In this document: piece after piece, positions 1 through 52,020 of the stretch | Layout: each line of letters begins with the position of its first letter | Position numbering within the stretch: the stretch's first letter is position 1 | NCBI GenBank assembly: GCA_028820505.1 | Contig: JAPPIT010000191.1 | Span: 1-52,020, forward strand | Source: Defluviicoccus sp. | GTDB taxonomy: Bacteria; Pseudomonadota; Alphaproteobacteria; MPNO01 | Direction of reading: 5' to 3' | DNA: 52,020 bases | Notes under the pieces: model-generated | The model's database searches: none | The model's input: only the letters and a program-made list of their open reading frames with translations | What the model was told of the DNA's origin: nothing | Translations under genes and position numbers: made by a program

Positions 1-145
1 GGCGGGGCGCTACTCGCCCGGCACCTTCAATCCCCCGGGACCCGAAGGCTTACGGCAGGACTTCTTCGCACTCTCTGCGTGGTTGTCGCATGGCCCGGCA
101 CCATTCCCGTGCCGGGATGCAATGCTGACCACGGGAGAGCGACAC

Positions 146-23304: not shown

Positions 23305-23314
23305 GGGACCGGGG

Positions 23315-24583: not shown

Positions 24584-24620
24584 ATCGTACGACCTTGCGT
24601 CTCCGGGAATCGACGTCCTG

Positions 24621-25283: not shown

Positions 25284-25389
25284 AGCGGCCGATTGTCGGG
25301 CCTCTCGAGCGGTATATGGCGCTCGTCAGAACCCGAGGGAATTTGGTACGGTACGATTACGCATATCGGACGATGGGATCCTCCCGGTA

Positions 25390-27105: not shown

Positions 27106-27112
27106 CCGGCCA

Positions 27113-33273: not shown

Positions 33274-34797
33274 CTACTGCTGCTGCAGCGTCACACCGAA
33301 CGCCCCGACCATGCGGCCTATATCGCCGTACGCCGCCTCGAACGCGCCCGTCGCCGCCGACGGTACCTGCTGGGCGTTCACGTCGTGCAGCTGGCCCCGC
33401 CAGGTCGGCGGCGTACCCGGAACCGACCCGGCAACACCCTCGATCGACCACACCGTGCGTGCCGTGTTGGCGCCGCCGGCCGAAAGCGCCCCGTCCGCGC
33501 CGATACCCGACCGCCCTAGCGTCACCGACCAAGGCATCCGCTCGCCGTCCACCATGAACCCGTCCACCATCCCTTCCATCGTCCCGGGGTCAGTGGCGTC
33601 GCCGAACTCCGCCCGAAGCACGACGCTGGCGGTGAACGTGCCCGCCGCTGCCGCGCCGAGCGGCGGGAAGAGCGCGAACTTGCCCGCCGCCGGGCCGCGG
33701 TAGCTGGCCGGACCCTGCAGCGCCGCAAGGCCCGAGAACTCGTCCGGCGCGCCGCCGATGCCGGTGTGGAACACTCCCACCGCGTGCGCCGCCCCGGTGT
33801 CGCGCAGCCACCACCCGAAATACCGGTACTCGCCGTCCGGCACCGCGACCGTCGCCCCCGGCGCGGGAACGAACGTCCAGCCCCCGCCACCCGCGAGCAC
33901 TACTCCGCCGCCATGCCGCACCGACGACGTGCACGGGCTCTGGCCGGTCGGCGTGCACACATAGGCGCCGGTCGCCCCGTCGAAGCTGCCGGCAACCCGA
34001 ACCACCCCGCCAGTGTCGGCCATGTGAGTGCGGATTCCCGCTGTCGTCGGAAACTCCGGTGAGGCGATCAGCGCCGCATCCGTGCCCGCCCCGATCGGAA
34101 GGCTGCCGTCCGCGGCAAGACCGTCGGTTGCGTCGTACTTGCCGCCTTCGCCGCTGAACGGCCGGCTGCCGGGGGCTTCGATGTCGGTCCACAGCACCAC
34201 CGTGTCGATCGTTCCCGACGCGTTGTCGGCCGCCCGATAGGTCCGCCCGCTCCAGCCTCCCACCGTGGAGGCCTCTCCGCGCGGGGCCGTCTCGAGATCG
34301 GTCACCGCCGCCGGCGGTGTCCCCGGCACCGTGCCGGACATGGCCGGCGCCGCACCGTGCGCGACCCTCGCCCCGATCGCCGAGATCCGCGCAGGCGAGG
34401 CCAGCGCCGCCGTCAGCTTCATCCGTTCCGCCGCCATTTGGCGCCGGCGCTCTTCGCGCGCTATCGCGATCGCCGATCTCGCCCGCCCGAGCTCTTCCTC
34501 GATCCGCCTGATCGAGGCTTCGAACGCGCTCTCCTCCGCGATGGAAAGCGCGTCAGCCTCCTCGACCGCCCGCTTCGCCGCGGCCAGCGCCGCGACCGCG
34601 GCATCGATGGCCTCGTCCGCCGCGTTCTCATCGAGGGCGCCGACCGCGGCGTCGGCGGCGGCGATCGCCGTGGCGATGTCCGCCCGCTGCCCGACCGCCG
34701 GATCGAGCGACCCGCTCGAGCCGCCGCCGCAAGCCGAGATGCCGAGCGCCAGTGCGGCCGCGCAGATCGCCGCCGCAAGTATCCTCTTCAGTGACAT
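33274..34797 (-). CDS. Surface lipoprotein 1 of Slam module 1 (coiled coil + TbpB-like barrel)
   Basis: 507 residues. The signal peptide ends ALALGISAC, with a GGGSSGS tether. Residues 35-140 form an alanine-rich helical/coiled-coil region (ADEAIDAAVAALAAAKRAVEE, RIEEELGRARSAIAIAREE). The rest is beta-rich with a conserved handle-type segment (TFVPAPGATVAVPDGEYRYFGWWL, GPASYRGPAAGKFALF, GTFTASVVLRAEFGD) and ends with MVGAFGVTLQQQ. A C-C pair (CTPTGQSPC) may form a disulfide. GGAGG 8 bases upstream lies within the 3' end of the small membrane protein gene, so the two are coupled. It is the predicted Slam 1 substrate displayed on the cell surface; the ligand is unknown. Confidence 0.78.
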   Translation of the reverse strand: MSLKRILAAAICAAALALGISACGGGSSGSLDPAVGQRADIATAIAAADAAVGALDENAADEAIDAAVAALAAAKRAVEEADALSIAEESAFEASIRRIEEELGRARSAIAIAREERRRQMAAERMKLTAALASPARISAIGARVAHGAAPAMSGTVPGTPPAAVTDLETAPRGEASTVGGWSGRTYRAADNASGTIDTVVLWTDIEAPGSRPFSGEGGKYDATDGLAADGSLPIGAGTDAALIASPEFPTTAGIRTHMADTGGVVRVAGSFDGATGAYVCTPTGQSPCTSSVRHGGGVVLAGGGGWTFVPAPGATVAVPDGEYRYFGWWLRDTGAAHAVGVFHTGIGGAPDEFSGLAALQGPASYRGPAAGKFALFPPLGAAAAGTFTASVVLRAEFGDATDPGTMEGMVDGFMVDGERMPWSVTLGRSGIGADGALSAGGANTARTVWSIEGVAGSVPGTPPTWRGQLHDVNAQQVPSAATGAFEAAYGDIGRMVGAFGVTLQQQ

Positions 34798-34801
34798 TCC
34801 G

Positions 34802-35041
34802 TCATCCTCCGATGGTAAGTATGCCCGCTTCCGGAAAGGGGCCGGCCCGAGAGAACGCCAGGACCAGAACCACGAAGCCCGTCACGATCAGGCCCACTAG
34901 CATCATGCGGCCGAACCGCCTGAACACCCGCGGCGTTCCCCGACCTTCGATCAGGCGTCGCAGATCCTCGATGTCATCGCGCGTCGGCATCGTCCGCTCG
35001 ATCCGGGCGATCCGCTCCTCGTAATCCCCGCCGCGCCGCAT
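34802..35041 (-). CDS. Small coiled-coil membrane protein between Slam 1 and lipoprotein 1
   Basis: 79 residues. The charged N-terminal helix (YEERIARIERTMPTRDDIEDL, RRLIEGRG) is followed by one membrane helix (MMLVGLIVTGFVVLVLAF) and a short tail. It is 4 bp from the next gene and 8 bp from the Slam stop, so all three are surely one transcript. I do not recognise the family, and no counterpart is seen in modules 2 and 3. It may be an inner-membrane helper for lipoprotein transit, but this is only a guess from position. Confidence 0.6.
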   Translation of the reverse strand: MRRGGDYEERIARIERTMPTRDDIEDLRRLIEGRGTPRVFRRFGRMMLVGLIVTGFVVLVLAFSRAGPFPEAGILTIGG

Positions 35042-35049
35042 CTCCCCTC

Positions 35050-36465
35050 TCAGAACAGCCGCACGAAGCGCAGCTCGCCTGAGATGCGGTCGTAACCGTG
35101 CAGCTGGGCGTTGGAGGTGCGCTGCTCCTGCACCAGCGAGACCTGCGGGCTGAAGCCGCCCACGGTGAAAGCGCGGTTGTGGACGTCGAGGCGGATCGAG
35201 CGGGTCAGGTCGCGGCGCGGACCGCCGCCGAGCACGAAGGGCGCCCAGCTGCCCTCATAGTCGGTCCGGCGCAACGTCCCGGCACCGCCCACGGTGAAGC
35301 CGTAAGGGAGAAGCACGGTGACGCCCAGGCGTCCCCAACGGTGGAAATGGCGTTCGCGCTTGCGGTTCGTCCTCTGCGATCCCCAGCCGAGCGCGATATC
35401 GAAGCGCGTCGTCGGTGTCGCCGCCCAGCCGACCCCGCCGGAGAGGTCGGTGACCGGGCCGTGGAGCCAGGACCGGTCCTTGTAGCGCCGATCGCGGCGC
35501 GAGGCGTTGAGGTGCGCCGTGGTCCGCCGGTCGAGCCGGTGGCGGCCTTCGGCGCGGATTCCGAGGTCGCGCCAGTCCTCCTCGTCCGCGAGCCGGCTCT
35601 GGCGGGCGCTCGCCAACAGGCTCGCCGACGAAGCCCGGCCGACCAGCCAGCGCGGGCCGAGATGGCCCGAAACCGTCATCCGGTCGAACCGGCTCCCGCG
35701 ATACTCCCGGCGGTGGATGTCGCCGCCGGCGCGCAGCCGCCAGCGCCGATTGACGGGATGCTGGTATTCGCCGCCGGCCCATACAGCGACGCCGACGCCA
35801 GACCTGGGCGGAGCGCCGCTATAGGTGAAGGGGAGGCGCCCGAACGGGGTGTCTATGAGGATCGTGCCCTCGCGCGTCTGGCCGGAGATGTTGCTGTCAG
35901 GTGCAAGCGCCGCGCCGACTCGCAGGCTCCACCGCTTGCGGGCGCGCATGATGTTGAGGAACCGGTTGACATTGAGCGCCACCGCCGCCGGAGGCTGGCC
36001 TGCCAGCACCCGTTCGAAATGCCGCGTCGCAAGCCCATCCTCGCCCTTCAGGAAGAAAGCGCGGGCCAGCTCCAGGCGGACCCGGACCAGACTCGGCTCA
36101 ACCACCAGCATCGCGCGGAACGCGGCTATAGCCTCATCCAGCAGCGCATCGCGCTTCTCCTCCGGGACGCCCAATCTCTGCGACGCACCGAGCGCCGCAA
36201 GCCCGTAATGAAAGGCGACGTTCGCGTCCGCCGGCTCCTCCCGCATCAGCGGGCCGAGGACCGACAGAGCCTCCTCGAACCTGCCCCGGCGGACCAGCGA
36301 CCGGGCCTTCGTCGTGGCGTTTTCGACCGCCCGGCCGGCCGGAGCGGCGGGTGGACTGTCCGCGCCCCAGGCCGGGGCAGAGAGGACCGGCGCCAGGGTC
36401 GATTCCAACGCGGGGGCGAGAAGCGGCAGAGCAGCCGATACCATGGCTATCTGACGAAGCCTCAT
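35050..36465 (-). CDS. Slam-type outer membrane translocator (Slam 1)
   Basis: 471 residues of the DUF560/Slam type (type XI secretion), which moves lipoproteins across the outer membrane. A Sec signal peptide (cut near APAWGA, about residue 35) is followed by a TPR-like helical domain (residues 45-180; LLDEAIAAFRAMLVVEPSLVR, LARAFFLKGEDGLATRHFERVL). The barrel begins at RKRWSLRVGAALAPDSNISG, with strands such as GVGVAVWAGGEYQHP and DIALGWGSQ, ending ELRFVRLF with terminal Phe. The start at 36465 is supported by GGAGGGTGGCC. Slam 3 is a close paralogue (AALAPDSN and LAGxPPAAVALNVNRFL shared). It is 88 bp from the Slam 2 stop. Confidence 0.85.
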   Translation of the reverse strand: MRLRQIAMVSAALPLLAPALESTLAPVLSAPAWGADSPPAAPAGRAVENATTKARSLVRRGRFEEALSVLGPLMREEPADANVAFHYGLAALGASQRLGVPEEKRDALLDEAIAAFRAMLVVEPSLVRVRLELARAFFLKGEDGLATRHFERVLAGQPPAAVALNVNRFLNIMRARKRWSLRVGAALAPDSNISGQTREGTILIDTPFGRLPFTYSGAPPRSGVGVAVWAGGEYQHPVNRRWRLRAGGDIHRREYRGSRFDRMTVSGHLGPRWLVGRASSASLLASARQSRLADEEDWRDLGIRAEGRHRLDRRTTAHLNASRRDRRYKDRSWLHGPVTDLSGGVGWAATPTTRFDIALGWGSQRTNRKRERHFHRWGRLGVTVLLPYGFTVGGAGTLRRTDYEGSWAPFVLGGGPRRDLTRSIRLDVHNRAFTVGGFSPQVSLVQEQRTSNAQLHGYDRISGELRFVRLF

Positions 36466-36553
36466 GGCCACCCTCCGCCCGTGACGCCGGACGGTCTGCT
36501 GCGGGCCGGACGCCTCGACTGTCCGTGCGTTCCCAGCACCGCGCCCCGCCCCT

Positions 36554-37900
36554 CTAAAACGACCGCACCACGCCGAGCTCGCCCGCCGTGCGCCGGTAGT
36601 CGTATAGAGCGAGATTGCTGGTTCGCCGCTCATGCCGCACCGTGACCTCCGGCATGAAGCCGAACAGCTCGACACTCCGGTTGGACACCGTGATCCGCCC
36701 TGCCAGCGTACGGTCCCGGCGGGCGTCGGGGCCGAGCGAGTGAAGCGGCGCGCCGTATTCCCGCCAACGGTAGCTCGGACCGCCGCTCACCACGAACCCC
36801 CATGGAAGCTCGCGTGAGACCGAGATCCCCAAAATCGCCTCGCGCCACGAATAGGCGTCCCGGTCCAGCCGCTCGCGGCGAAAGGTCGTCTGGACCCGCA
36901 CCTGCGTTGCCCGCCCCAGTGCGTGGGCGAGGTTAAGCCCCGCCGAATCCAGGCTGCCCTCGCCGAGGAAGGTCCTGTAGTCCACCCATTCGCGCCCGAG
37001 CGAGGCGCCCAGCCGCCACGTGTCGCCGATCAGCCAACTGCCTGAAAGCGCGGCGCCAACCGTCCGGTTGTACACCTCGCCGCCCAGCCAACGCCGGCCC
37101 ATCGTCAACTCCGGGCGAAGGTCGAACTTTTCAAACAGAATGCGCGGCCCGGCGCGCAGGCTCAGGATCCGCTCGTCAAACCGGTCCTCCCGGTAGGTCC
37201 GGGTCCTCAGCCCGCCGCCCACCCGGAACCGCAGGTCCGACGCGAGCCGCGCCTCGTAGCCACCGGACAGGTTCGCGCTCACCCCGACCCCGGAGGTCCG
37301 GCGCGCATCGTCCGACAGCGTCGCCGGCAGGCCGAACAACTCCACCGACCGGGCGCCGGTCGCGTTGTTGATGTTGCTGTCCGGCAGAACCGCGAACGAG
37401 CCGGTCACCGACCACGTCTTGCGCCGCCGGATCCGGTCGAGGAAGGCCAGAGCCCGGGCGCGGGCGATCTCCGGGAGGTCCGCAGTCCCAAGCGCCAGAC
37501 GGAAGTGATAGGCCGCGTTCCTATCCTCGCCCGCCTGAAAATAGACGAAAGCGAGGTCGAGACGCACCCTCGGCAGGTCCGGGTTGCGCGCCAACATTGC
37601 ACGGAACCGCGCGATCGCCTCCCGCCAGTCGCCCCGCTTGGCAGCGATCGTGCCCCACAGGAAATCCACCGCGTCGATGTCGTCCTCGCCGGGATTCACC
37701 CCCTTCAGAAGAAACGCCGCGTCGTCGAGATTACCTCTGGCGATCGCCTTCCGGGCGGCCTCAATCAGAGTCCCGGCAGACAGCTCCGGCCGCGGCGGCG
37801 CCTGCGACCCGACCGCGCCGCCGGGCAGGGAAGTCGCGAAGAACAGTGCCAGGAACATCGCCCCGAGCGATCGGGTGTAGCGGTCCATGCGCGAACTCAT
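36554..37900 (-). CDS. Slam-type outer membrane translocator (Slam 2)
   Basis: About 448 residues. The start could be 37900 or 37888 (MDRYTRS), giving a signal peptide with FLALFFATSLPGGAVG. The helical N-terminal domain has two TPR-like units (EAARKAIARGNLDDAAFLLKG; AIARFRAMLARNPDLPRVRLD). The barrel starts RKTWSVTGSFAVLPDSNINN, has VGVSANLSGGYEARL and YRWREYG, and ends ELGVVRSF. It is clearly the same family but less similar to Slam 1 and 3 than they are to each other, matching its different substrate. The gene follows lipoprotein 2 beyond a terminator, so expression probably depends on read-through. Confidence 0.83.
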   Translation of the reverse strand: MSSRMDRYTRSLGAMFLALFFATSLPGGAVGSQAPPRPELSAGTLIEAARKAIARGNLDDAAFLLKGVNPGEDDIDAVDFLWGTIAAKRGDWREAIARFRAMLARNPDLPRVRLDLAFVYFQAGEDRNAAYHFRLALGTADLPEIARARALAFLDRIRRRKTWSVTGSFAVLPDSNINNATGARSVELFGLPATLSDDARRTSGVGVSANLSGGYEARLASDLRFRVGGGLRTRTYREDRFDERILSLRAGPRILFEKFDLRPELTMGRRWLGGEVYNRTVGAALSGSWLIGDTWRLGASLGREWVDYRTFLGEGSLDSAGLNLAHALGRATQVRVQTTFRRERLDRDAYSWREAILGISVSRELPWGFVVSGGPSYRWREYGAPLHSLGPDARRDRTLAGRITVSNRSVELFGFMPEVTVRHERRTSNLALYDYRRTAGELGVVRSF

Positions 37901-37914
37901 CGATAATTGCAAGC

Positions 37915-37955
37915 AAAAGAAAGGGCGCCCGATCCGTCGCCGGACCGGGCGCCCC
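37915..37955 (-). terminator. Intrinsic terminator between lipoprotein 2 and Slam 2
   Basis: Read on the minus strand, a perfect 9-bp stem (GGGCGCCCG / CGGGCGCCC) with a 14-nt loop is followed by TTTCTTTT. It lies 31 bp after the lipoprotein stop and just upstream of Slam 2, so it should sharply lower Slam 2 transcription relative to the lipoprotein. Confidence 0.78.
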
Positions 37956-37985
37956 GTTGTCGGTCGGAAGGTCGGATACGCAGAC

Positions 37986-40250
37986 CTACCGGGCGCCGCC
38001 GAACGCGCCGCGGAACGCGCCGGCCTCGTTGTCTTCCGACTCAAAGTCGAAGACACCGCCGGCCTCGGACGCCGTGGCGCCGAAGAAGGCTCCGCTGAAC
38101 GAGCCGGTGAAGTCCTCCCCGCCCGTCAAACTCTGGGTGTTGTCAGCGGCCACCGTCGCCTTGGTGCCCGAGAACGTACCCCCGGAGATATCGCCCTCAA
38201 GCATGGCGAGGCCCGTCAGGTCGACCATGACTTCGTTGTCGTTGAAGTCCGCAGTCATCGTGGCGGCTCCGCTGGTGAGGGAGATGGCCCCGTTGCCGTC
38301 AGGATCCGCCTCCTGCACCGTGCCGGCCCAGTTGCCGTTGTAGGTCGCCGTGCCGAAGTTCGGCATGTCATCGTCGCCGGTCATCCCATCGCCGATGCTC
38401 TGCACGAAGCCGATGCCGAGGTCAGAGGGGTTCTGCAAGGCCTTCCCTGCGTCACCGAGTGCGGCCCACACACCGAAATGGATGTGATCGTACTCTGTGG
38501 CCTCGGCGAGCTTAGCCGTAACCTGGACCTCCTCGGCTGTGCCTTGAACGGTCGCATCGGAAGCATCAGCCGTGATGTCGACCGACCGATACACGTAGAA
38601 TGTTCTGCCGCCCTCCGTGCGCTGGCTGTCCAACACCAAGTAGACCGTCACATCGTCGGCGGGGTCGGTGTTGCCCTGATCGCTGACATAGGAATACACC
38701 GCCGAGGACTTGGCCTGGGCTCCGACCACATCGGTATTTGCGAGCCCGTCTGTGTCGGCAGCTTCACCCGCCAAGTAGAACGTGCCCACGGACCTCAGGT
38801 TCATGGTGGTATCTGCATCGCCACCGGTACCACCGATAGCAGTATCGGTACCCAAGTTAGTTATGATTGTGCCCAGCGACGTGGACACCCGGCCAGCCGT
38901 AACGGCGGTTGCCGCTGGATCGGCTTCATTGTAGGCAAACACCTTCGCGTTCTTCGAGCCGGCATAGTGAGTGACGATCATCAGGCGGGCCATGTCGTCC
39001 GCCGAATCGACCACTTTCCCGATGTCGACGCTACGCTCCGCCACAGCCTGAACGTACTCCGTATCCGCAGCAGGAGCCACGGCAGCCACAAATGCCACCC
39101 CGGTAATCGCATCAACTGTTTGGGTTGGCTTCAGGCCTGCCTGAAGGCCAGTATCCTGCGTCGTCTGGTTCGCACCAGTGCCTCTGGTCACCACATTGTT
39201 CGGAGCATCCGCGTCGAGCTGGATATCGCCCACGCTTTTCACGGTGCCGTCGATCTTCAACTCGACCATGGCATCCGCCACCGCTTCGTCCCGGGAGTCT
39301 TCAGCGACACCCTGAGCCTCTATGGCAGCGTCCCGGGCGTCTTCAGCATCGTCCCGCGCTTCGCGGGCGTCAGCCACGTTCGCCGCGTTGTTCGCCGTGT
39401 TGTAAGCAGCAAGGGCCTTGCCAGCCTCGGTCATCGCCGTATTCGCCGCGGTCCTGGCCGCCATCGCATCGGCGACCGAGTCGGCTTCGCCGGTTTGAAT
39501 GGTTGCCCTGTTGTCATCCGCAACCTCGGCCTCGTCGGCAGCCACATCGGCATCCGTCTCGGCATCCGCCGCCAATCCGGAGGCGGTCATCGCGGCCGTC
39601 ACAATCGGTCCGAGCTGATCCGGAGCAGTGCCGCCCTCAAGCTCTGCAATTCGAGCTTTTGCGGCATTGAGCTGGGCGTGGAGACTCGCATCCGAACTGC
39701 TATCCGGAGCGTCCGTTTCGGAACCGATCCTGGCCCGCTCGGCAGCCAGCATGCCCAGAAGGCTGTCCGAGTCGTCCGCGGAGCCGATCCGCGCGGTCAG
39801 CGAAGCGATCTGCCCCAGCAGGCTCGTCGCGTCGTCGGCCGAGCCGATCCTTGCCATGGCGGCAGCCAACTGGCCCCTCACGCTCGCCGCGTCCGGGTTG
39901 GTCTCATCCCCGAGCGTTGTCATCAGGGTCGTCACCTTGGCCTGCTCGGCAGCCAACATGCCCAGAAGGCTGTCCGGGTCGTCCGCGGAGCCGATCCGCG
40001 CAGTCGCCGCAGCCAACATGCCGGTTAGGCTGTTCGGGTCGTCAGCGGAGCCGATCCGGTCATTGGCGTCGTTCAGTTCGCCCTGCAGCCGTTCGGCATC
40101 GGCCTTGTACCCGTCGGCCATCTGCTTGAGGTCCATGTACTGCTGCGTCTCGGTCACCGGCGTGTCGTCGCCGCCGCCGCCGCATGCCGCGAGGCCCAGC
40201 GTGAGCACCGCCGCGCAGCAGATCGTCGTCAGTTTTCTGTATCTTTGCAT
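37986..40250 (-). CDS. Surface lipoprotein 2 of Slam module 2 (20-residue repeats + TbpB-like end)
   Basis: 754 residues. The signal peptide ends TLGLAAC, with a GGGGDD tether. Residues 61-207 hold a coiled-coil repeat with 20-residue period built on ARIGSADDPDSLLGMLAA. Residues 210-330 are Ala/Asp-rich helix (TAANTAMTEAGKALAAYNTA). The C-terminal half is beta-rich and closes with GAFRGAFGGAR, the same GAFG-type end as the other lipoproteins. The start at 40250 has GGAG about 11 bases upstream and a full signal peptide. It is probably surface-exposed by Slam 2. The repeat may act as a stalk; ligand unknown. Confidence 0.8.
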   Translation of the reverse strand: MQRYRKLTTICCAAVLTLGLAACGGGGDDTPVTETQQYMDLKQMADGYKADAERLQGELNDANDRIGSADDPNSLTGMLAAATARIGSADDPDSLLGMLAAEQAKVTTLMTTLGDETNPDAASVRGQLAAAMARIGSADDATSLLGQIASLTARIGSADDSDSLLGMLAAERARIGSETDAPDSSSDASLHAQLNAAKARIAELEGGTAPDQLGPIVTAAMTASGLAADAETDADVAADEAEVADDNRATIQTGEADSVADAMAARTAANTAMTEAGKALAAYNTANNAANVADAREARDDAEDARDAAIEAQGVAEDSRDEAVADAMVELKIDGTVKSVGDIQLDADAPNNVVTRGTGANQTTQDTGLQAGLKPTQTVDAITGVAFVAAVAPAADTEYVQAVAERSVDIGKVVDSADDMARLMIVTHYAGSKNAKVFAYNEADPAATAVTAGRVSTSLGTIITNLGTDTAIGGTGGDADTTMNLRSVGTFYLAGEAADTDGLANTDVVGAQAKSSAVYSYVSDQGNTDPADDVTVYLVLDSQRTEGGRTFYVYRSVDITADASDATVQGTAEEVQVTAKLAEATEYDHIHFGVWAALGDAGKALQNPSDLGIGFVQSIGDGMTGDDDMPNFGTATYNGNWAGTVQEADPDGNGAISLTSGAATMTADFNDNEVMVDLTGLAMLEGDISGGTFSGTKATVAADNTQSLTGGEDFTGSFSGAFFGATASEAGGVFDFESEDNEAGAFRGAFGGAR
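39630..40070 (-). repeat. 60-bp coding repeats in lipoprotein 2
   Basis: The segment encodes RIGSADD-type units at residues 65, 85, 134, 154 and 174, each followed by SLLGMLAA or a variant, with a strict 20-residue (60-bp) spacing inside two blocks separated by a diverged block. The DNA copies remain similar enough to slip or recombine. Confidence 0.75.
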
Positions 40251-41482
40251 CGGAGAGATGCTCCTCCATTTCTACCATTTGAAGCGGCCTCGCGACGGAG
40301 ACCCCGCGAAGATTCTCTACACTCTCTTGAGTGCATGGGCAAGCGTATTTCCAACCCGGCATGTCGTCAATAGCGCCAAGCCCTTGCCCGAATGGATTTT
40401 GCCCACAGCGAAGCGGGAAACGCAACTCTCCCGGGTCGGCACGGGCTCGCGCCGACGCTGGCACGCATGTCCGCGGATGGCGGGCCATACCCTCGGATGG
40501 CCCCCGGACGCAGGGGAGAACCGGAAGGATAATGCGCGCGGCGGCGTCTCCGACGCAGGATTATATCCTGATATCAGTATGTTATGACCCATTTCGCATG
40601 ACCCCGGCGGGATCGGGGCGACCGCCCGCCCGTTGCTCCGCCGGGAGGGGAGCCGGTCCCCAGCGCGCCCACCGGTGGCTCCGCGGCGCTGACGGGTTTC
40701 GCAGCCGGAACCCTCGCCACGATCAAAATGCGAGGTGAGACATCGCGGCCTAGGACCGCACCGCCGTCCGGGACCTGTTGCACGGAGGCAACTTATTTTG
40801 CAAATCGCCGAAGATTTCCGAATCGGCCCAAACGAGAATCGTCAAGCGGTTGGGGTTCGCCGCCGGACATGCCCACGTTGGACAGGGCAACGTTGGACAG
40901 GGCAACGGCGATGAAGGCGGCGATCGAAGCGGCCGGGACGACGGGCGCCTGCGGCGGGTTCGACGAAAAGGCCACCGATGCGGGTGCCAGACGGGCCCGT
41001 GATCCCCACAACCCAAATCGAGTGGCTCACCTCGACCGCAACATACAGCGTGCTATCCCCCAAACTGCCTGCGCCGCGGTCTCGTTCCTCGGGGGCATCC
41101 CAGATATTTCCTCTTGAGTGTGGTTGACACCGACACCGGCACCGTAGCGCCGGTCGCCGAATCACCTCATGGGATCTGAGTAGCGGCCCCTGGCCGGGTA
41201 TCGAAGGGCGCCCGTCGCCCATCGCCTTCCCCCGGCCCCTCCCGCAAGCAGGCGGGGAGAAGGTGAGCCGAGAAGCCGGGGTGAGGACTCCGGTTCTCGA
41301 TCTGGTCGCCGGCTTCCGGCGTAAATTCTGAGAACCCCGTGGCGCCACTCGACATGCGCGAGTAAGAGTCGTGGATAAGTAGCGCGTTGCCGCCAGACTC
41401 GTCGCCGGTCGCTGAGACGTGCCACTTATTTTGCTACCAACCACCGCCAGAGCTCCTACACCACGCCACGGGACACGACCCC
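40251..41482. other. Gene-free stretch left of the IS4 element
   Basis: About 1.2 kb without a supported gene. It includes the upstream region of lipoprotein 2, a 15-bp tandem duplication (ACGTTGGACAGGGCA at 40875-40889 and 40890-40904) and, towards 41482, what was probably the promoter region of the carboxypeptidase gene before the IS4 insertion. Confidence 0.5.
40342..40370 (-). promoter_or_regulatory. Possible promoter of lipoprotein 2
   Basis: On the minus strand, TTGACG and TACGCT are separated by 17 bp, about 92 bp upstream of the start codon. This is a moderate match to a sigma-70 promoter; other matches by chance are possible. Confidence 0.3.
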
Positions 41483-42838: not shown

Positions 42839-42863
42839 GGGACACGACCCCCCGGAGCAAATG

Positions 42864-44051: not shown

Positions 44052-44270
44052 CCTCATGGTCCGGCCGATCGACCTACGTGACGGCGGGAACGCCGGCGCG
44101 GCGCGGCGGTCGAGTAGGAGGGGCTCGGTAACGCTCCCGCCTGCTCGGCCGCTATAGGTCGAAGAATATCGGTCGTTCGCCTGTGGGCAGTAACCCTCCG
44201 GGGTAGGCCGCCTGTTGCTTTGGGGAGTGCCTGGGCAGGCTGAGGTGTTCGGGAAGTGGGCGCTTGTCAG

Positions 44271-44296
44271 GTGTCCACTTAGCGGTAAGTGGACAC
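44271..44296. repeat. Perfect 11-bp hairpin at the edge of the IS66 remnant
   Basis: GTGTCCACTTA - GCGG - TAAGTGGACAC. Directly upstream of the transposase frame; possibly an IS end or a terminator without T-run. Confidence 0.5.
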
Positions 44297-45130
44297 TTGG
44301 CCGATGTCGGTTTCCGGGGAGAGGGCTGTCGAGGCGGGCGGCGGGGCGGTCGATCGCCGGCGGCGCCGGTGGAGCGAGGCCCAGAAGCGCCAGATCGTCG
44401 CGGAGAGCCGTGAGCCGGGGGTTTCGGTATCGGTGGTGGCGCGGCGATACAACGTCAATGCCAACCAGGTGTTCACCTGGCGGCGACAGTATTGCGAGCC
44501 GGAAGGCGACGCCGAGGCTGGCCGGTTGGTGCCGGTTGGGTGTTGGGCGCATTCGCGGCGCAAGTTCTTCGAGCTCGCCGACATCGCGGCGAGCAAGAGA
44601 CGGCGCGGGAACGCGCCGCCGATCTCGCCGCTGGCGCTGGAGGCGGTGAAGCGGATCGACCCGCTGTTCGACATCGAGCGCGGGATCGTCGGCGAATCCG
44701 CCGAACATCGCCTCGCCGTGCGCCGGGAGCTCAGCGCGCCGGTGCTGGCCGACCTCAAGGAGTGGATGGAGGCCGAGCGCGGGAAGCTGTCGAAACACGC
44801 CCCGGTGGCCAAGGCGATGGACTACATGCTCAAGCGCTGGGCGCTGTTCGCCCGCTTCCTCGACGACGGCCGCATCTGCCTCACCAACAATGCCGCGGAG
44901 AGGGCGCTCAGAGGTATTGCCCTAGGAAGACGCAGTTAGTTGTTCGCCGGCTCCGACCGCACGCCGCGGCGATGTACACCCTGATCGGCACCGCCAAGCT
45001 CAACGACGTCGACCCGCAGGCCTGTCTCGCCAATGTGCTCGGTCGCATCGCCGAGACGCCGCAGAGCAGGCTCGACGAACTCCTCCCCTGGAACTGGGTT
45101 CCGGAACAGAAGCTCGATCGGGCCGCGTAA
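44289..45130 (+). pseudogene. IS66-family remnant: TnpA start fused to TnpC end
   Basis: Residues 25-70 (RRRRWSEAQKRQIVAESREPG, VARRYNVNANQVFTWRR) are the HTH of IS66 orfA (TnpA). The frame then jumps to VGCWAHSRRKFFELADI and TNNAAERALRGIALGRRS, the C-terminal part of the IS66 TnpC. A stop (TAG at the place of the usual Trp, near 44937) and a later frameshift separate it from AAAMYTLIGTAKLNDVDP and LDELLPWNWVPEQ, ending at 45130. It is a deletion fusion with further decay. Confidence 0.8.
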
Positions 45131-45204
45131 ACCAGGATCCCTGCGCTTCAACCGGCACTGCCCGCCGTCAAACCCAGCCCCAAATACCCCGCGGTCTTCG
45201 CCGG

Positions 45205-46010
45205 ATGGTTACCAAGGATTGGGGCAGCGAGGGCAACATGGCGTCGTGCGAGGCGGCGGGTCTGGACTATTTGTTCAAGCTGCGCCTGACCAAGGGCGCG
45301 CGCCGGCTTGCCGAGCGGCAGATGGCGCGGGACGAATGGGAGGATGCGGGCCAGGGCTGGCAGGGGATCGGGGCCGAGCTCCGCCTGCACGGCTGGAGCC
45401 GGTCGCGCCGGGTGACGGTGTTGCGCCGCCGGCTTCGCGAACCGCTGGCGCTGACACGCCAGGACGACGGCCATGGCGAGTTGTTCTGGAACGAGGCGCG
45501 GCCCGGCACCGCGGCGTTTGGGAGTTCGCGGTGCTGGCGACCTCGCTCGATCTGGAGGTGCGTTCTCTGGCCCAGCTCTACCGCGACCGGGCCGACGCCG
45601 AGAACGGCTTCGACGAGCTGAAGAACCAATGGGGCTGGGGCGGCTTCACCACGCGCGACCTGACGCGCTGCCGGCACATGGCCCGACTGATCGCGCTCAT
45701 CTACGACTGGTGGAGCCTGTTCGTGCGCCTCGCCGATCCCGATCGCCACCGCGAGGCGATCACCAGCCGACCGCTGCTCCTTCACGGTGTGGCCCGCCAG
45801 ACCCATCATGCCGGCCAGACCCGGCTGACGGTGACCTCCCATCACGGGCGGCGCGAGGCGGTGGCCGCGGCCCTGCGGCGGATCGCCGGCTTCTTTCGGG
45901 CCCTGGCGCAAAGTGCGGAGCAGTTGACCGCCGAGGATCGCTGGCGCCGGATCCTGGCCGAGGCGCTCAAGAAGTACCTCCACGGCCGCAAGCCGGGCCG
46001 TCAACCCTAG
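45205..46010 (+). pseudogene. IS1380-family transposase, truncated and frameshifted
   Basis: DWGSEGNMASCEAAGLDYLFKLR and WSRSRRVTVLRRRL occur in one frame up to about 45515. WEFAVLATSLDLEVRSLAQLYRDRADAENGFDELK and YDWWSLFVRLADPDRH continue in a second frame to 46010. These are the middle and C-terminal parts of an IS1380-type DDE transposase; the N-terminal third is absent. The sequence CTGCCGGATTTAGG near 46100 may be its right end. Confidence 0.8.
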
Positions 46011-46343
46011 CTGCCGCCCCTCGGGCCGCGCTGGCATGCTGAAATCGACCCTGAAATCGACCGCCCGGACCACGCCGAGTCGCTGATCGCGCCCTCCAAC
46101 TGCCGGATTTAGGATTATTTGAAAATTTGGCGGCCCATCCCGATTCTCGACGTTCGCTCCGTGACTTCGCCTCGTTCTCTGCCGGTAAGGTGTGCCCGTG
46201 GCCCGGTATGGGGGGCCCGGCATCCGAGTTTGACGCACACCCACAAAGACCGGATGGACGGCGGGGCAGGTCCGTCCGCCCCGTACATTACGTCCAGGGT
46301 CGACACAGCACCCATCCGCCGGCCTTTGTACCAGACCGGCGGA
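46011..46343. other. Gene-free stretch between IS remnant and integrases
   Basis: About 330 bp containing the probable IS1380 right end near 46100. No gene is seen; it may contain an attachment site next to the integrase pair. Confidence 0.4.
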
Positions 46344-47546
46344 TCACGTCTCGGAACGCGATCCTTCCACTAGGATCGACAGCGATTCTTGCGGCAATAT
46401 GTCTCCGCCGATGCTCGCCGCGACCCGGGCTGCAGATTGCATTATAGAATCGCGCGCGAGGTGGGCGTAGCGCGCCGTCGTCTGAATCTTGGTGTGCCCG
46501 AGCAGCTTGCCGATCATCGGAAGGGGCTCGCCCAAGGCTAGCGCCCTGCTTGCGAAACTGTGTCTAAGGTCATGGATTCGCACGTCTTCCAGCCCGGCGC
46601 GCGCTCGCACGCGGTACCAGTAGTAGGAAATATGCGCCAGCCGCGCGCCCGGCTTGCGCCCGGCGATCACCCACGGATTGCCGTCGGACCGGGGCAGTTC
46701 CGCGAGAACCCTGGCCGCCGCCGGCGACAGCGGGACCGTCCGCGGACCCGTCTTGCTGTCGGCGAGGCGGATCTCGCCCCTCTCCAGAAACACGTCCTCC
46801 CAGCGAAGGTCGAGGATCTCGCTGCACCGGCACCCGGTCAGCATCAGCAGCCGGAACGCCGCCGCGCCATGCACCGGCAGACGATCCTCGGACTGCAGCG
46901 CATCCAGAGCTTCGCCGATGCGCCGGAACTCCTCCTCCGTCAGGAAGCGCTCGAGACGCCGCGTCCGGTACTTCGTCACGAAACGGCAGGGGTTGGAGCC
47001 GGCGGGAACCAGGCCCCAAGCCTCCGCCTGATTGAACATCCGAGACAGCGCGCCCACCGCCTCGTTCGCCGCGACCGGCGTTTTTTTTAGCGAATGATGC
47101 AGATTTGCAACATGTTCGCGCCCGATCGCGGCGATCGGCAGTCTGCCCAGGGCCGGCACCACGTTGCGGCGAATCACCTGGCGATAGCCCTTCAGGGTCC
47201 GGGGCTTGCAGCGCACCGCCACATGCTCTCGGAGATACCGCTCCGCCAACTCGGCCACCGTCGGCCCGGCGCCTTTGTTCGGCTCCTCTCCCGCCTTGAT
47301 GGCGTCCAGCAGCTTCTCCGCCCTCCGGCGCGCTTCGTCGGCCGCGATCACGCCGTGGCGGCCGACCGTCGCCCGCCTCGATCCATCGGGACCCCGGCCC
47401 TGCACCAGATAGACCTTCGCCCCCGACCTGTAGACGCGTACCCCGAAACCCCGGAGATCCCGATCCCAGTAGATGACGTCCCTGTCCTCGGCGAAGAGTC
47501 CGCCGACGAACCGGTTCGACAGCAGGTGTCGCTGTACCCTCGCCAT
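46344..47546 (-). CDS. Tyrosine recombinase (phage-type integrase) 1
   Basis: A 400-residue integrase with three parts: an N-terminal arm-binding domain (DUF4102-like; YWDRDLRGFGVRVYRSGAKVY), a SAM-like core-binding domain (TVAELAERYLREHVA) and a catalytic domain. The catalytic domain has Arg in GCRCSEILDLRW (about 238), HDLRHSFAS (about 326), LLGHT and Tyr in TARYAHLA (about 359). All catalytic residues are present. The start at 47546 follows GGAAGCACGG. It starts 23 bp after the stop of integrase 2, with which it shares about half its residues (recent duplication or pair). Confidence 0.92.
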   Translation of the reverse strand: MARVQRHLLSNRFVGGLFAEDRDVIYWDRDLRGFGVRVYRSGAKVYLVQGRGPDGSRRATVGRHGVIAADEARRRAEKLLDAIKAGEEPNKGAGPTVAELAERYLREHVAVRCKPRTLKGYRQVIRRNVVPALGRLPIAAIGREHVANLHHSLKKTPVAANEAVGALSRMFNQAEAWGLVPAGSNPCRFVTKYRTRRLERFLTEEEFRRIGEALDALQSEDRLPVHGAAAFRLLMLTGCRCSEILDLRWEDVFLERGEIRLADSKTGPRTVPLSPAAARVLAELPRSDGNPWVIAGRKPGARLAHISYYWYRVRARAGLEDVRIHDLRHSFASRALALGEPLPMIGKLLGHTKIQTTARYAHLARDSIMQSAARVAASIGGDILPQESLSILVEGSRSET

Positions 47547-47569
47547 GCCGTGCTTCCCGTGGTCGCTTC

Positions 47570-48784
47570 CTACGCCGCTTCGTCCCGCGAGAAGGCGTCG
47601 TCGCCGGCCGCCGTCTTCAGTCGAAGGATGTCGGCCTCGATGCTGCCGCCGACCTTCGAGACCGCGGTCTTCTCGGCGTCCTGCGCCAGATGGGCGTAGC
47701 GAGCCGTGCTGCCGACATCGGTGTGGCCGAGCAATCGTCCGATCATGCTCAGGCTTTCGCCCAGCGCCAGGGCACGGGACGCAAAGGAATGTCTCAAATC
47801 GTGAATCCGGACATCCTCGACCCCGGCGAGCTCCCGCGCGCGGTGCCAGTAGGTCGTGAGTTGGGAGAGGTGCCCGTCCGGCCCTTTGCCGGGGAACACC
47901 CAAGGGCTTCCGGGAACCCGGACGATCCCAGCCAGCACCGCTTCCGCGGTGGGCGTCAGCGGGACCATGCGCGCACCCGTCTTCGCGTCGCGAAGGCGCA
48001 ACTCGCCCGCCTTGCGGTCCACATCGTCCCACCGCAGCGTCAGAATCTCGCCCAGCCGGCAGCCGGTCACCATCAGCAACCGCAGCGCGGACGCCGCGCG
48101 CGCCTGCAGCGGCCCCCCGGCTTCTAGGACGCAGAGCGCGCGGCCGATCCGCCGATACTCGTCCTCGGTCAGAAACCGCTCGCGCTTGCCCTCCTTGTAT
48201 CTGCGAACGTACCGGCACGGGTTGCCGCCGGGCGGCGCCAGCCCCCACGCCTCGGCCAGCGAGAACATCTTCGACAGCACCATCAGCGCCCGGTTGGCCG
48301 CGCGCGGGGTGTCGCGGAGCGCATAGTGGAAGCCCGCCGCCTGCGACCGGCTCACGGAGGCGATCGGCACGTTCCCCAGTGCCGGTAGGATGTGGTTGTC
48401 GAGCGAACCCCGGTAGATACCCTGCGTGTGCGCGTTGCAGTTCGCCGCCACATGCGCCTCCATGTAGCGTTCCGCCAAATCGGCCACCGTAAGGGGGCGC
48501 TCGGGCGGCGCGGCCTCCGGCTTGCCGCCCAGCTTGATACGGTCGATGACGGCGGCCGCCTCCTTCCGCGCCCGTTCCGCGGTGAGCGGTCCGTGCCGGC
48601 CCAGGGACACCCGTTTCAGACCTCCCGCTCCCCGGGTCTGAACGACATAGATCTTGCGGCCCGACGGGTAGACGCGCACGCCGAAACCGGCGAGGACGCG
48701 GTCCCAGAAGACCGCGTCCTTCCCCTCGACCGACAGCCTGTCGACGGTCCGCTTGGAGAGGGTCAGCTCCGCTCGTTTCGGCAT
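47570..48784 (-). CDS. Tyrosine recombinase (phage-type integrase) 2
   Basis: 404 residues with the same layout as integrase 1: FWDRVLAGFGVRVYPSGRKIY, TVADLAERYMEAHVA, Arg in GCRLGEILTLRW, HDLRHSFAS, LLGHT and Tyr in TARYAHLA. Complete catalytic set. First gene of the pair on the minus strand. Its upstream region diverges toward lipoprotein 3. Two integrases in tandem suggest an element that uses both, or stacked islands. Confidence 0.92.
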   Translation of the reverse strand: MPKRAELTLSKRTVDRLSVEGKDAVFWDRVLAGFGVRVYPSGRKIYVVQTRGAGGLKRVSLGRHGPLTAERARKEAAAVIDRIKLGGKPEAAPPERPLTVADLAERYMEAHVAANCNAHTQGIYRGSLDNHILPALGNVPIASVSRSQAAGFHYALRDTPRAANRALMVLSKMFSLAEAWGLAPPGGNPCRYVRRYKEGKRERFLTEDEYRRIGRALCVLEAGGPLQARAASALRLLMVTGCRLGEILTLRWDDVDRKAGELRLRDAKTGARMVPLTPTAEAVLAGIVRVPGSPWVFPGKGPDGHLSQLTTYWHRARELAGVEDVRIHDLRHSFASRALALGESLSMIGRLLGHTDVGSTARYAHLAQDAEKTAVSKVGGSIEADILRLKTAAGDDAFSRDEAA

Positions 48785-49014
48785 GGTGAAGAAGCCTGCT
48801 GTTGAAGATTGACGATGCTCAATCCGTAATCACTGCGTCAGAAACTGAAATCGAACCCCAGCGCAGCGGATCACATGTTTGGCTACCGGTCAATCCCGAA
48901 TCGGGCCTATAAGATATTGACAATACGACATTTTATCATACTCCAGGCTTCGTGAGGCCCTTCTTGTCATCGTATGCCCATTTATAATGAAAACAAGAGG
49001 AGAGCCTCGAAACG
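48785..49014. promoter_or_regulatory. AT-rich divergent promoter region
   Basis: 230 bp, much more AT-rich than the surroundings, between integrase 2 (minus) and lipoprotein 3 (plus). A consensus TATAAT lies at 48983-48988 with TTCTTG 16 bp upstream, giving a promoter for the lipoprotein about 30 bp before its start. TTGACA at 48917 is another possible -35 box with no good partner. GAGGAGAG precedes the ATG at 49015. Confidence 0.5.
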
Positions 49015-50616
49015 ATGTCTACGTACAGAAATCTGATGACGGTCTGCTGCGCCGCCGTGTTCGCGCTCGGCCTCGCAGCGTGCGGTGGCGGCGGCGGAGA
49101 CGACAGTCCAACGGCCGAGGGACCGGGGGTGTGCCCTGAGGGACAAACGGGGACGCCCCCGAACTGCGTGACCCCCCCGCCTCCAGGCCCCACGCCTGAG
49201 GAAATCGCGGCGATGACCGCGGCGGCCGGGACCAAGAAGAAAGCAATCGAAGCGGAGGGTGAGCAGGCTACCGATGCTGGGCTCGGCGGCACCGCCAGAA
49301 CCGACGCGGACGGCCAGACCACTGCCGACGACACGAGCGACGACGTGTACGGTCTGTCCATCAGCCGCGACCGCGCCGGGACGACGATCAAGATCACGGA
49401 CCCGGACAATGCCGGCGACGACGATCCCAAGTTCTCCAAAGCTATGGACTTAGGCTCCACCGGCCAGATGCACACCCGCACGATGGAAGCGGACGACGAC
49501 GGCAACGTGATGACGGAAGTCGCGGTCGTTTACACCGACATCGCGGCTCCCAAGGCGGTAGCGTTTGCCAAGTTCCAAAATGCAGAAGGAACTGCGACGC
49601 AAACGTTGAACATCGATCTGGATCCGGCGATGGATGCGGATAACGATGGCACCGCAGACAATGACCTCACCGCACGTTCGGTTGGTGCTGATGGCACCAC
49701 TGCTCCTACCGCAGATGAGATCAAGCTGGTCATGTCGGGCGGGCTCGGCAGTGGTGGAAGCACTCAGCGCAATTTTGCCGGATACCAGTTGGATAGTGAT
49801 ACAGGCACCGCCGGCAATCAGACCATCCAAGCCTACGAGACGGCAGGGACCTACAATGGCGCGATGGGTACCTATCGTTGCAATGGCGGGGCGACCGGCT
49901 GCACGATAAGTTACAACACCAAGGGCGAGATCAGTGCGATGAGCGCGGGCTGGGTCTTCATCCCGGGTGCGGGTGCCACCTCCGACCAGCCGGACTATGA
50001 CTATCTGCATTACGGCTTCTGGCTGAAGCGGACGGCGGACGCCGACGGCGTGCTCGAATATAACGAGGTCGAGACCTTCGCCGGTTCGTCGATTGCCGCG
50101 AGTGACGGAAGCCAACTCGATACCGTCACCGGCAGCGCGAGCTACGAAGGCAGCGCGGCGGGCGTCTACGTCCACAGCGTGGTCAACCCGGACGGGACCG
50201 AGGCCTCGGCGACCTCCGGCCATTTCACGGCCAACGCCAGCCTGATGGCATATTTCGGGCAGACCGTGGACGACACCAATACCGCCAATACCGACGAATC
50301 GGGTCGGGTTGCGCCCAACATGCTCAACACTGTCACCGGCACCATCGACAGCTTCGTCCTGTCGGGCGGCGAGGCGCAGAACTGGGCGGTGGCGCTGCAA
50401 GGCTCGCGTGCGGCCGGTGCGAACACCTTCTCCGGCACGGCCAAGGGCGGCGTCGGCAATGGCTCGTTCAGCGGGACGTATCACGGCTCGACGCCTGAGA
50501 CCGACTCCGACGGCGACGGCACCACCAGAGTGGCGCCGGGGTCCATGGTCGGCGAGTTCAACGCGGGCTTCACCAACGGCTCCGTGGCCGGCGCCTTCGG
50601 TGCACGGAAGAAGTAG
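49015..50616 (+). CDS. Surface lipoprotein 3 of Slam module 3
   Basis: 533 residues. The signal peptide ends FALGLAAC, with a GGGGGDDS tether; it is nearly the same as that of lipoprotein 2 (YR-L-TxCCAAVxxLGLAACGGGG). A proline-rich linker with two cysteines (CPEGQTGTPPNC) and an acidic region (DNDGTADND, DPDNAGDDD) follow. The beta-rich body carries the same motifs as lipoprotein 1 (AGWVFIPGAGATSDQPDYDYLHYGFWL, GSASYEGSAAGVYVH, GHFTANASLMAYFG). It ends VAGAFGARKK. It is the predicted Slam 3 substrate. The acidic Asp-rich stretches suggest calcium binding, but no ligand can be named. Confidence 0.82.
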   Translation: MSTYRNLMTVCCAAVFALGLAACGGGGGDDSPTAEGPGVCPEGQTGTPPNCVTPPPPGPTPEEIAAMTAAAGTKKKAIEAEGEQATDAGLGGTARTDADGQTTADDTSDDVYGLSISRDRAGTTIKITDPDNAGDDDPKFSKAMDLGSTGQMHTRTMEADDDGNVMTEVAVVYTDIAAPKAVAFAKFQNAEGTATQTLNIDLDPAMDADNDGTADNDLTARSVGADGTTAPTADEIKLVMSGGLGSGGSTQRNFAGYQLDSDTGTAGNQTIQAYETAGTYNGAMGTYRCNGGATGCTISYNTKGEISAMSAGWVFIPGAGATSDQPDYDYLHYGFWLKRTADADGVLEYNEVETFAGSSIAASDGSQLDTVTGSASYEGSAAGVYVHSVVNPDGTEASATSGHFTANASLMAYFGQTVDDTNTANTDESGRVAPNMLNTVTGTIDSFVLSGGEAQNWAVALQGSRAAGANTFSGTAKGGVGNGSFSGTYHGSTPETDSDGDGTTRVAPGSMVGEFNAGFTNGSVAGAFGARKK

Positions 50617-50675
50617 ACCGAGCCAACGGGTCCGGGTCTCGATGAGAACCTGACCCTTCGGCTCAGACTTCGGGG

Positions 50676-50709
50676 AGAGGGTGGCAATTCCTGCCACCCT
50701 CTTTTTCTT
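50676..50709 (+). terminator. Intrinsic terminator between lipoprotein 3 and Slam 3
   Basis: A perfect 11-bp stem AGAGGGTGGCA / TGCCACCCTCT with loop ATTCC, followed by TTTTTCTTT. It is located 60 bp after the lipoprotein stop and 24 bp before the Slam ATG. Confidence 0.85.
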
Positions 50710-50732
50710 TCCCTTCGACATCCCGGTAGCAG

Positions 50733-51992
50733 ATGACCGCCTTCAAGCCACTCCCCGCCGCCCTCGCGGGCGCTGTCCTTCTCGCGACCTCCCTTCTCGC
50801 GGCCTCGGCTCCCGCGCAGGCCGCCGGGAAACCTCCGCCGGCGTCGCCCGCCGGCAAGCAATCGGCGGCGGCCGATGTCGCAAAGGCGCGCGCCCTGATG
50901 ACGAAGGGTCGCGACGACGAGGCCCTCGCCATCCTGCGCCCGCTCGCGAAGGGCCGGGAGGCGCCGTCCAACGCGCTCTTCCTCCTCGGTCTGGCGGCGA
51001 TCGGCGCGGCGCACAAGCCGGACATCGCGGAAGACGACCGCGATGCGCTGCTGGACGAAGCCATTGCGGCCCTCCGCAAGTTGCTCATTCGCCGGCCCGA
51101 GCTGATCCGCGTCCGCCTGGAGCTCGCCCGCGCCTTCTTCCTCAAGGGCGAGGACACGCTCGCCAGGCGGCATTTCGAGCAGGTGCTGGCGGGCAAGCCG
51201 CCGGCGGCGGTGGCGCTCAACGTCAACCGCTTCCTTGCGCAGATACGGGCGCGCAAGCGCTGGAGCGTGCGCGTCGGCGCCGCGCTCGCACCGGACAGCA
51301 ACGCCAACGCCCAGACCAAAGAGCGGACGATCGTGCTCGACACCCCGCTGGGACGGCTGCCGTTCAACTACCGGAGCGACGACGAGCCCGAGACCGGCAC
51401 CGGCATCTCGGTCTGGGCGGGCGGCGAGTACCAGTACCCGTTGAGCCCGCGCTGGCGCCTGCGCTCCGGCGCCGATTTCTCCCGCCGCGAGTACCGCTCT
51501 GACGAACTCGACCGGATGAACGTGACCGCCCATATAGGCCCGCGCTGGCTGATCGGACGTGCCTCGGACGCGAGCCTGCTGGCGAGCGTGCGCCAGAGTT
51601 GGCTCGCCGACGAGGAGGACTATCGCGACCTCGGGATCCGGATCGAGGGGCGGCACCGGCTCAACCGGCGGACGACGGCATTCCTGAACGCCGCGCGGCA
51701 TGAGCGGCGCTACGAGGAGCGCGAGTGGCTGGACGGACCGGTCACCGACATCTCGGGCGGCATTGGCTGGGTGGCGACGCCGACGCTGCGCGTCAACGCG
51801 GGGCTGGGCTGGGGGCAGCAAAGGACGGAAGAGGAGACGCAGCGCCATACCTGGCGTTCGGTGCGGTTTGGGACCACGTTGCTGCTGCCTTACGGCTTTA
51901 CCGTCGGCGGCACCGGCACGCTGCGCTGGACCGAATACCAGGGCAACTGGGGGCCGTTCGTGATCGGCGGTGTTGTTTCGCAGATTGTCTGA
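50733..51992 (+). CDS. Slam-type outer membrane translocator (Slam 3), C-terminally truncated
   Basis: 419 residues. A Sec signal peptide (cut near APAQA) and a TPR-like domain (LLDEAIAALRKLL, LARAFFLKGEDTLARRHFEQVLAG) precede a barrel from RKRWSVRVGAALAPDSNANA. It is very close to Slam 1 through GTLRWTEYQGNWGPFVIGG. Slam 1 then continues for about 57 residues ending in the C-terminal strand VRLF; here the sequence changes to VVSQIV and stops at 51992. The last strands are lost, which should prevent normal barrel closure unless the assembled product differs. The ribosome site is weak. Confidence 0.8.
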   Translation: MTAFKPLPAALAGAVLLATSLLAASAPAQAAGKPPPASPAGKQSAAADVAKARALMTKGRDDEALAILRPLAKGREAPSNALFLLGLAAIGAAHKPDIAEDDRDALLDEAIAALRKLLIRRPELIRVRLELARAFFLKGEDTLARRHFEQVLAGKPPAAVALNVNRFLAQIRARKRWSVRVGAALAPDSNANAQTKERTIVLDTPLGRLPFNYRSDDEPETGTGISVWAGGEYQYPLSPRWRLRSGADFSRREYRSDELDRMNVTAHIGPRWLIGRASDASLLASVRQSWLADEEDYRDLGIRIEGRHRLNRRTTAFLNAARHERRYEEREWLDGPVTDISGGIGWVATPTLRVNAGLGWGQQRTEEETQRHTWRSVRFGTTLLLPYGFTVGGTGTLRWTEYQGNWGPFVIGGVVSQIV

Positions 51993-52020
51993 GGTCGGAT
52001 TTGCCGGATTATTTCGCGTC

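Follow-up and report, generated by a model that had tools for sequence, protein, structure and literature searches.

The Slam-family genes and adjoining lipoprotein genes on this contig of Defluviicoccus sp. are best read as type XI secretion system (T11SS) modules for surface display, in which the translocator would recognize a constant C-terminal barrel, a variable N-terminal part would form the working end, and the number of modules would have grown on islands rich in integrases and insertion sequences (IS); we put the probability of this reading at roughly 80%. Most likely, the modules constitute a display repertoire for contact with the host or with neighboring cells, spread on integrase islands. 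The window analyzed here is an entire contig (C8; 52,020 nucleotides) from a genome of 5.49 Mb in 228 contigs, and its two sides are formed by the ends of two different IS. Previous studies show that Slam carries barrel-bearing cargo across the outer membrane and that the variable N-terminal part of the cargo is the effector (PMC8406197, PMC12282271, PMC5449769), and the general plan of a T11SS cargo has been described as barrel, pedestal and variable effector (PMC12282271).

Slam Translocators in the Window and the Genome

A preliminary description of this DNA had named three Slam-family translocators, and profile searches bear this out, with all three products matching the SlipAM/DUF560 model PF04575 above its curated cut-off of 22 bits (Table 1). 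The accompanying picture of three modules needs to be redrawn, as they are not three intact units; rather, we find one cluster of cargo, Slam, Slam, small protein and cargo genes, a module interrupted by an IS, and a cargo gene that has no Slam beside it on this contig. Both Slams of the cluster are full-length with intact frames and end in the C-terminal aromatic residue of a complete barrel (VRSF in Slam 1 and VRLF in Slam 2); the starts of the listed open reading frames are overlong, with likelier starts at 37900 for Slam 1 and 36465 for Slam 2. At 34% identity Slam 1 and Slam 2 belong to different lineages, and the cluster thereby combines two unrelated Slam lineages. Only Slam 1 passes the Slam-specific TPR model PF24575 (TPR_Slam; cut-off 35.2 bits), while Slams 2 and 3 match this model and generic TPR models below the cut-offs (E about 1e-3 to 1e-5). 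Genome-wide there are five Slam places, three of them in the window and the others on contigs C70 and C146.

Table 1. Features of the window, in order of position.
Feature	Position	Strand	Description	Evidence
IS end, second type	1..53		13 copies, at contig ends
Cargo D candidate	146..1408	+	Mature start CGGGGGGGGG, short linker, barrel; no Slam beside it on this contig	Barrel homology
Cargo B candidate	33274..34797	-	507 aa; mature start CGGGSSGS, three Ala-rich helices (33-133), handle, 8-strand barrel (362-504)	AlphaFold2; no Pfam match
Small protein, candidate accessory component	34802..35041	-	79 aa; coiled coil and one predicted TM helix	8 nt after Slam 2 stop
Slam 2	35050..36465	-	471 aa; signal peptide, TPR-like part (matches under cut-off), SlipAM barrel with C-terminal VRLF	PF04575 57.8 bits; sponge-linked clade
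Slam 1	36554..37900	-	449 codons; SlipAM barrel with C-terminal Phe, behind a signal peptide and a TPR domain	PF04575 81.2 bits; PF24575 38.8 bits
Cargo A candidate	37986..40250	-	754 aa; mature start CGGGGDD, about four 20-residue GSADD repeats, Ala-rich coil, handle, C-terminal barrel	PF01298 46.3 bits
Two tandem tyrosine integrases	46344..48784	-	Next to the module of cargo C and Slam 3	PF00589 and Arm-DNA-bind_3 in each ORF
Cargo C candidate	49015..50616	+	533 aa; mature start CGGGGGDD, Pro/acidic linker, handle, barrel	Profile-profile match to cargo B family
Slam 3	50733..51970	+	Truncated by IS after residue ~412	PF04575 67.0 bits, profile positions 1-222 of 288
IS end (TGTTGTTTCGC...)	51971..52020		Within Slam 3	5-bp target duplication GGCGG shared with C18 flank

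Candidate Cargo Lipoproteins

All four lipoproteins, read directly, carry a signal peptide, a lipobox and a Gly-rich mature start. That they share a common end behind different N-terminal parts, as first described, is real by alignment, profile comparison and one structure model. In an alignment with relatives from 45 related Slam loci, the C-terminal ~200-250 residues were conserved and the N-terminal part varied; the latter consists of Ala-rich helices in cargo B, 20-residue repeats (about four units of the form GSADD....L.G.LA) followed by an Ala-rich coil in cargo A, a Pro/acidic linker in cargo C and a short linker in cargo D. Within the barrel, invariant residues are kept across genera.

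The TbpB_B_D profile PF01298 exceeded its cut-off of 26 bits for cargo A and left cargos B, C and D unmatched. Similarly, the NCBIfam model NF041636 (slam_lipo) gave cargo A 47.2 bits, under its cut-off of 80, and no match to the other three, which indicates that the window cargos are distant relatives and not members of that equivalog. More sensitive comparisons joined the set: the cargo C profile matched the cargo B family profile at E 2.2e-71, and the cargo A type, with relatives in L031, L117 and L098, was joined to the other cargos at a probability of 97 and E 1.3e-10 by profile comparison of the C-terminal parts, which were used because signal peptide and coil dominated the comparison of the A and B families at full length. 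The cargo D barrel is 45% identical to the cargo at L124, a locus in a record titled Nitrospirales, 33% identical to that of cargo B and 33-34% identical to those of its window mates.

Structure prediction succeeded for cargo B, whose AlphaFold2 model (pLDDT 81.6) contains the helices, handle and eight-strand barrel given in Table 1. Its nearest structures in VIA-align were hemophilin (7re4, Z 14.8), fHbp (8bk2, 14.5) and the TbpB C-lobe (5kkx, 14.3), all of which are known Slam cargos, and in Foldseek the matches below E 0.001 were to TbpB and NHBA only. The barrel of cargo C is assigned by homology, as the model of this protein (mean pLDDT 47.8) was too poor for use; querying PDB sequences with the cargo profile returned only chance coiled-coil and lipobox matches. 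Taken together, the C-terminal end is an eight-strand TbpB-type barrel, by PF01298 in cargo A, by the model and its Z scores in cargo B, and by homology in cargos C and D. At the border of handle and barrel, the cargo A family has an invariant H-x-H-F-G-V-W (within 37986-38573, minus strand; present in five relatives), possibly a metal or ligand site, and the other cargos have Y-x-x-F/Y-G-W-W.

Cargo Repertoire and Gene Linkage

Barrel-bearing proteins far outnumber the translocators, with 17 places in the genome matching the barrel profile and about 29 in all when PF01298 is included, versus five Slams. Most of these places have no Slam beside them, and some of the weak ones may not be cargo. 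Applied to 397 other Pseudomonadota genomes, the same profile reached E 6e-7 at best. Among the 40 related loci for which at least 1 kb of upstream sequence was available, 31 had a same-strand barrel lipoprotein gene that ended under 1.6 kb ahead of the Slam match; in the window, cargos A, B and C are linked to a Slam and would be its substrates, and cargo D is not so linked on this contig.

Three adjacent small barrel lipoproteins of a GGW..HS.F / GVFER..I.GAFG type occur with no Slam nearby at L032 (G000:C125):1274-4236, and this type, found also on C185 and C163, is a second barrel-lipoprotein family of the genome. An identical 1140-bp barrel lipoprotein gene is present on C175 (L040) and C225 (L041), reflecting either a recent duplication or an assembly copy. 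Additionally, the genes of the C70 Slam and its small protein are directly followed by that of an S8 subtilase of 846 aa, which bears a lipobox (CGGGGGGG) and a C-terminus of the outer-membrane type (L006, G000:C70, 99-2639, minus strand), and similar proteins lie near Slams at L099 and L113. This subtilase is reminiscent of Neisseria NalP, a protease that is both a lipoprotein and an autotransporter and that releases Slam cargos.

Proposed Mechanism

Sequence data and one good structure model show the gene families, their domain architecture and linkage, the clade, the IS interruption and the fold of one cargo; translocation, the pairing of cargo with Slam, ligand binding, a host role and the role of the small protein are inferred. 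The T11SS mechanism known from the literature fits every architectural fact of the window modules. Accordingly worded for this genome, the lipoproteins would pass via Sec and lipidation to the outer membrane, where Slam would recognize the C-terminal eight-strand barrel and transfer the lipoprotein to the cell surface, and the N-terminal lipid and Gly-rich tether would keep the cargo attached there. Barrel and handle would form the constant targeting and pedestal part, and the N-terminal helical bundle, repeats or flexible linker would act as the working end or as a spacer, probably binding molecules of the host or of neighbors. In a genus of probable sponge symbionts, duplication and the acquisition of additional Slam lineages on integrase- and IS-rich islands may have enlarged the set, and the repertoire appears to be still turning over, with one Slam and a cargo gene on C146 cut by the same IS.

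A Small Membrane Protein Behind Slam 2

The most specific new observation is the small gene directly behind Slam 2. Its family, 63-79 aa in size, has no Pfam counterpart and shows weak similarity, far under the cut-off, to coiled-coil/TM types such as XhlA. A profile built from nine sequences gave 12 matches below E 1e-20 in 24 genomes, every one of them 3' of a Slam C-terminus and mostly within about 50 nt, with no strong match away from a Slam; weak matches (E 1e-8 to 1e-4) had no Slam nearby and were discarded. This genome has three copies, each directly behind a Slam of the sponge-linked clade described below, the third following the displaced end of Slam 3.

For this element alone, the explanation that the gene is an unrelated hitchhiker and no part of the Slam system comes close to even odds in our estimate, falling slightly below them. 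It draws on the confinement of the family to one sub-branch, with no copy behind Slam 1 or most sponge Slams, and on the faint XhlA-like resemblance, but it has to contend with the exclusive position of all 12 strong matches behind a Slam C-terminus. As a part of the display system, the small protein may assist or regulate Slam in that one sub-branch. The outer-membrane protein is so far the sole component known to be required in T11SS (PMC9100927), and the gene of the small protein would be a candidate for a partner in addition to it.

Copy Number and a Sponge-Linked Clade

The expansion of Slam genes had been called unusual for its setting; the copy number itself is unusual relative to the sampled Pseudomonadota and not so among sponge symbionts. 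In an even draw of 398 Pseudomonadota genomes, 62 had a Slam above the cut-off and, apart from the Defluviicoccus sp. genome with its five Slam places, none had more than four full-length copies, whereas high numbers are usual among sponge-symbiont MAGs, with up to seven Slam matches (some of them fragments) in the genomes behind the related loci. The scan for these relatives used the three closer Slams, an alignment of all five being too divergent.

In a tree of 90 Slams, Slam 2, Slam 3 and the C70 Slam fell into a clade of 51 rows (support 100/99) that included none of the 29 background Slams. Slam 1 represents an old lineage outside this clade, where it pairs with a Slam from an Ircinia MAG (L133), and the C146 Slam represents a third lineage. 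Nearly all members of the clade are sponge-derived MAGs, with the addition of the record titled Nitrospirales. Bins named jk18x and p16x come from Caribbean Ircinia (PMC9531527), p16x being assigned by naming only; those named RHO, SB, STY, IRC and APA are demosponge MAGs, matched by bin name to the species list in PMC8163846; and the term EF100-94H03 occurs in an Aplysina paper (PMC5649159), a few other rows being of unverified origin. Because two MAGs of the same genus derive from Ircinia and Rhopaloeides (G004 and G003; contig places L087 and L096), the host of the Defluviicoccus sp. genome is probably a sponge as well, an assignment that comes from these same-genus MAGs and not from the genome's own record.

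Five bins labeled Chloroflexi or Acidobacteriota (L094, L104, L107, L122 and L130) were not counted as evidence of spread across phyla; four of them were placed, all among alphaproteobacterial rows, which makes mis-binning likely (L130 was not placed). A stronger cross-phylum case is the record titled Nitrospirales (OY282373, locus L124), a 2.9-Mb chromosome of putative Nitrospirales affiliation and putative sponge origin. It is conceivable, although we regard it as less likely than not, that a sponge-symbiont-specific T11SS branch has been passed across phyla (Alpha- and Gammaproteobacteria and the record titled Nitrospirales) and shows the sponge host a large family of barrel lipoproteins with exchangeable N-termini, one sub-branch having a third, undescribed component in the small coiled-coil/TM protein. 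With the 51-row clade, T11SS, so far a system described for Proteobacteria, would also reach into a Nitrospirota genome.

Classical secretion systems are reported from few lineages of sponge symbionts, which leaves the delivery of their eukaryote-like proteins unexplained (Robbins et al., 2021, PMC8163846). Provided that it functions, a T11SS display repertoire of many copies would be an overlooked surface route for sponge symbionts, and the present analysis supplies named genes for it. A search of open-access journal literature found no work joining sponges with T11SS; the machine type is known, and the sponge-linked Slam branch, its many passengers and the small extra gene appear to be undescribed.

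Comparison With Known Systems and the Question of Iron

Like Slam1 and Slam2 of Neisseria meningitidis and other T11SS outer-membrane proteins, the Slams described here have a SlipAM barrel and a neighboring lipoprotein cargo with a C-terminal barrel, and their N-terminal part matches TPR models, above the Slam-specific cut-off in Slam 1. They differ from these in forming a clade apart from the sampled background Slams, in reaching up to 5-7 copies per genome, in the small membrane protein gene behind some copies, and in that no TonB receptor was seen beside them in the window or among the listed neighbor families. The fold of cargo B (residues 131 to 507; Z 14 to 15) is that of TbpB, fHbp, NHBA and hemophilin/HphA, to which the window cargos add a three-helix bundle, 20-residue repeats or a Pro/acidic linker, and three of the four escape PF01298. 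In having a long N-terminal part, of helical repeats or disordered, ahead of pedestal and barrel, they agree with the T11SS cargos of the Pls-like and disordered-N-terminus kinds, and secretion has been demonstrated in E. coli for one Pls-like cargo (PMC12282271); the repeat sequences differ from those seen here, and the present cargos belong to sponge-type MAGs.

A role in iron binding or immune interaction, named in the preliminary description as what Slam systems of Neisseria and relatives are mainly known for, is unsupported by the gene neighborhoods. If the modules served iron or heme uptake like those of Neisseria and Xenorhabdus, their cargos would be hemophore or transferrin-receptor analogues, and hemophilin HphA is indeed the structure that cargo B matches best; however, fHbp and TbpB reach similar scores, so that the ligand cannot be read from the fold, and heme or transferrin binding was not adopted, since this fold is common to cargos with different ligands. 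TonB-dependent receptors are frequent at known T11SS loci (PMC12282271, PMC8406197), but a Pfam search found none beside the Slams of the window, and none is among the 25 best-represented families of 91 neighbor genes, beyond which a receptor could occur as a single match at most. As integrases are the commonest neighbors of sponge Slams (7 of the 91 genes) and no TonB receptor is among the listed neighbors, an iron role is not favored, and we judge it unlikely.

IS Interruption and Mobile Setting

Slam 3 had been taken for a complete gene, which is not borne out, as an IS interrupts it at 51971 and its frame continues on another contig. The final 49 bp of the window are repeated at 10 places, all of them contig ends and each behind an unrelated flank; the remaining Slam 3 frame was found at C18:46637-46810, beside another end of the same IS, and the 5-bp flank GGCGG is common to the window and C18 junctions. 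The recurring IS end, the resumption of the frame on C18 and the 5-bp duplication together place the IS within the Slam 3 gene in the assembled population. As assembled, Slam 3 lacks the last barrel strands and hence a complete barrel with a C-terminal aromatic residue.

That the modules are decaying selfish cargo, mostly non-functional debris spread by integrases and IS, is improbable: the cuts by one IS in both Slam 3 and the C146 cargo, the mobile genes all around, and the partial or stop-broken Slams of several related genomes would suit it, but Slam 1 and Slam 2 are intact over their full length, the cargo barrel retains invariant residues across genera, and many sponge MAGs hold the genes at high copy number. 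The impression of a mobile setting has proved correct, the window containing a MOBF-type relaxase (2136-5357), transposases (41.5-46 kb) and the tandem tyrosine integrases (46.3-48.8 kb). The relaxase, encoded on the minus strand, is of the TrwC type with a RecD-like helicase, as in a conjugative or mobilizable element.

The type II secretion system noted beside the Slams is real in its genes, which extend over 15008-33155 and encode a secretin, a prepilin peptidase, E, F, G, other pseudopilins and a K-like protein; nothing ties it to the Slams. These type II genes surround a 1719-aa open reading frame with CBM60 and DUF1588 matches and a gene for a DUF1501 protein.
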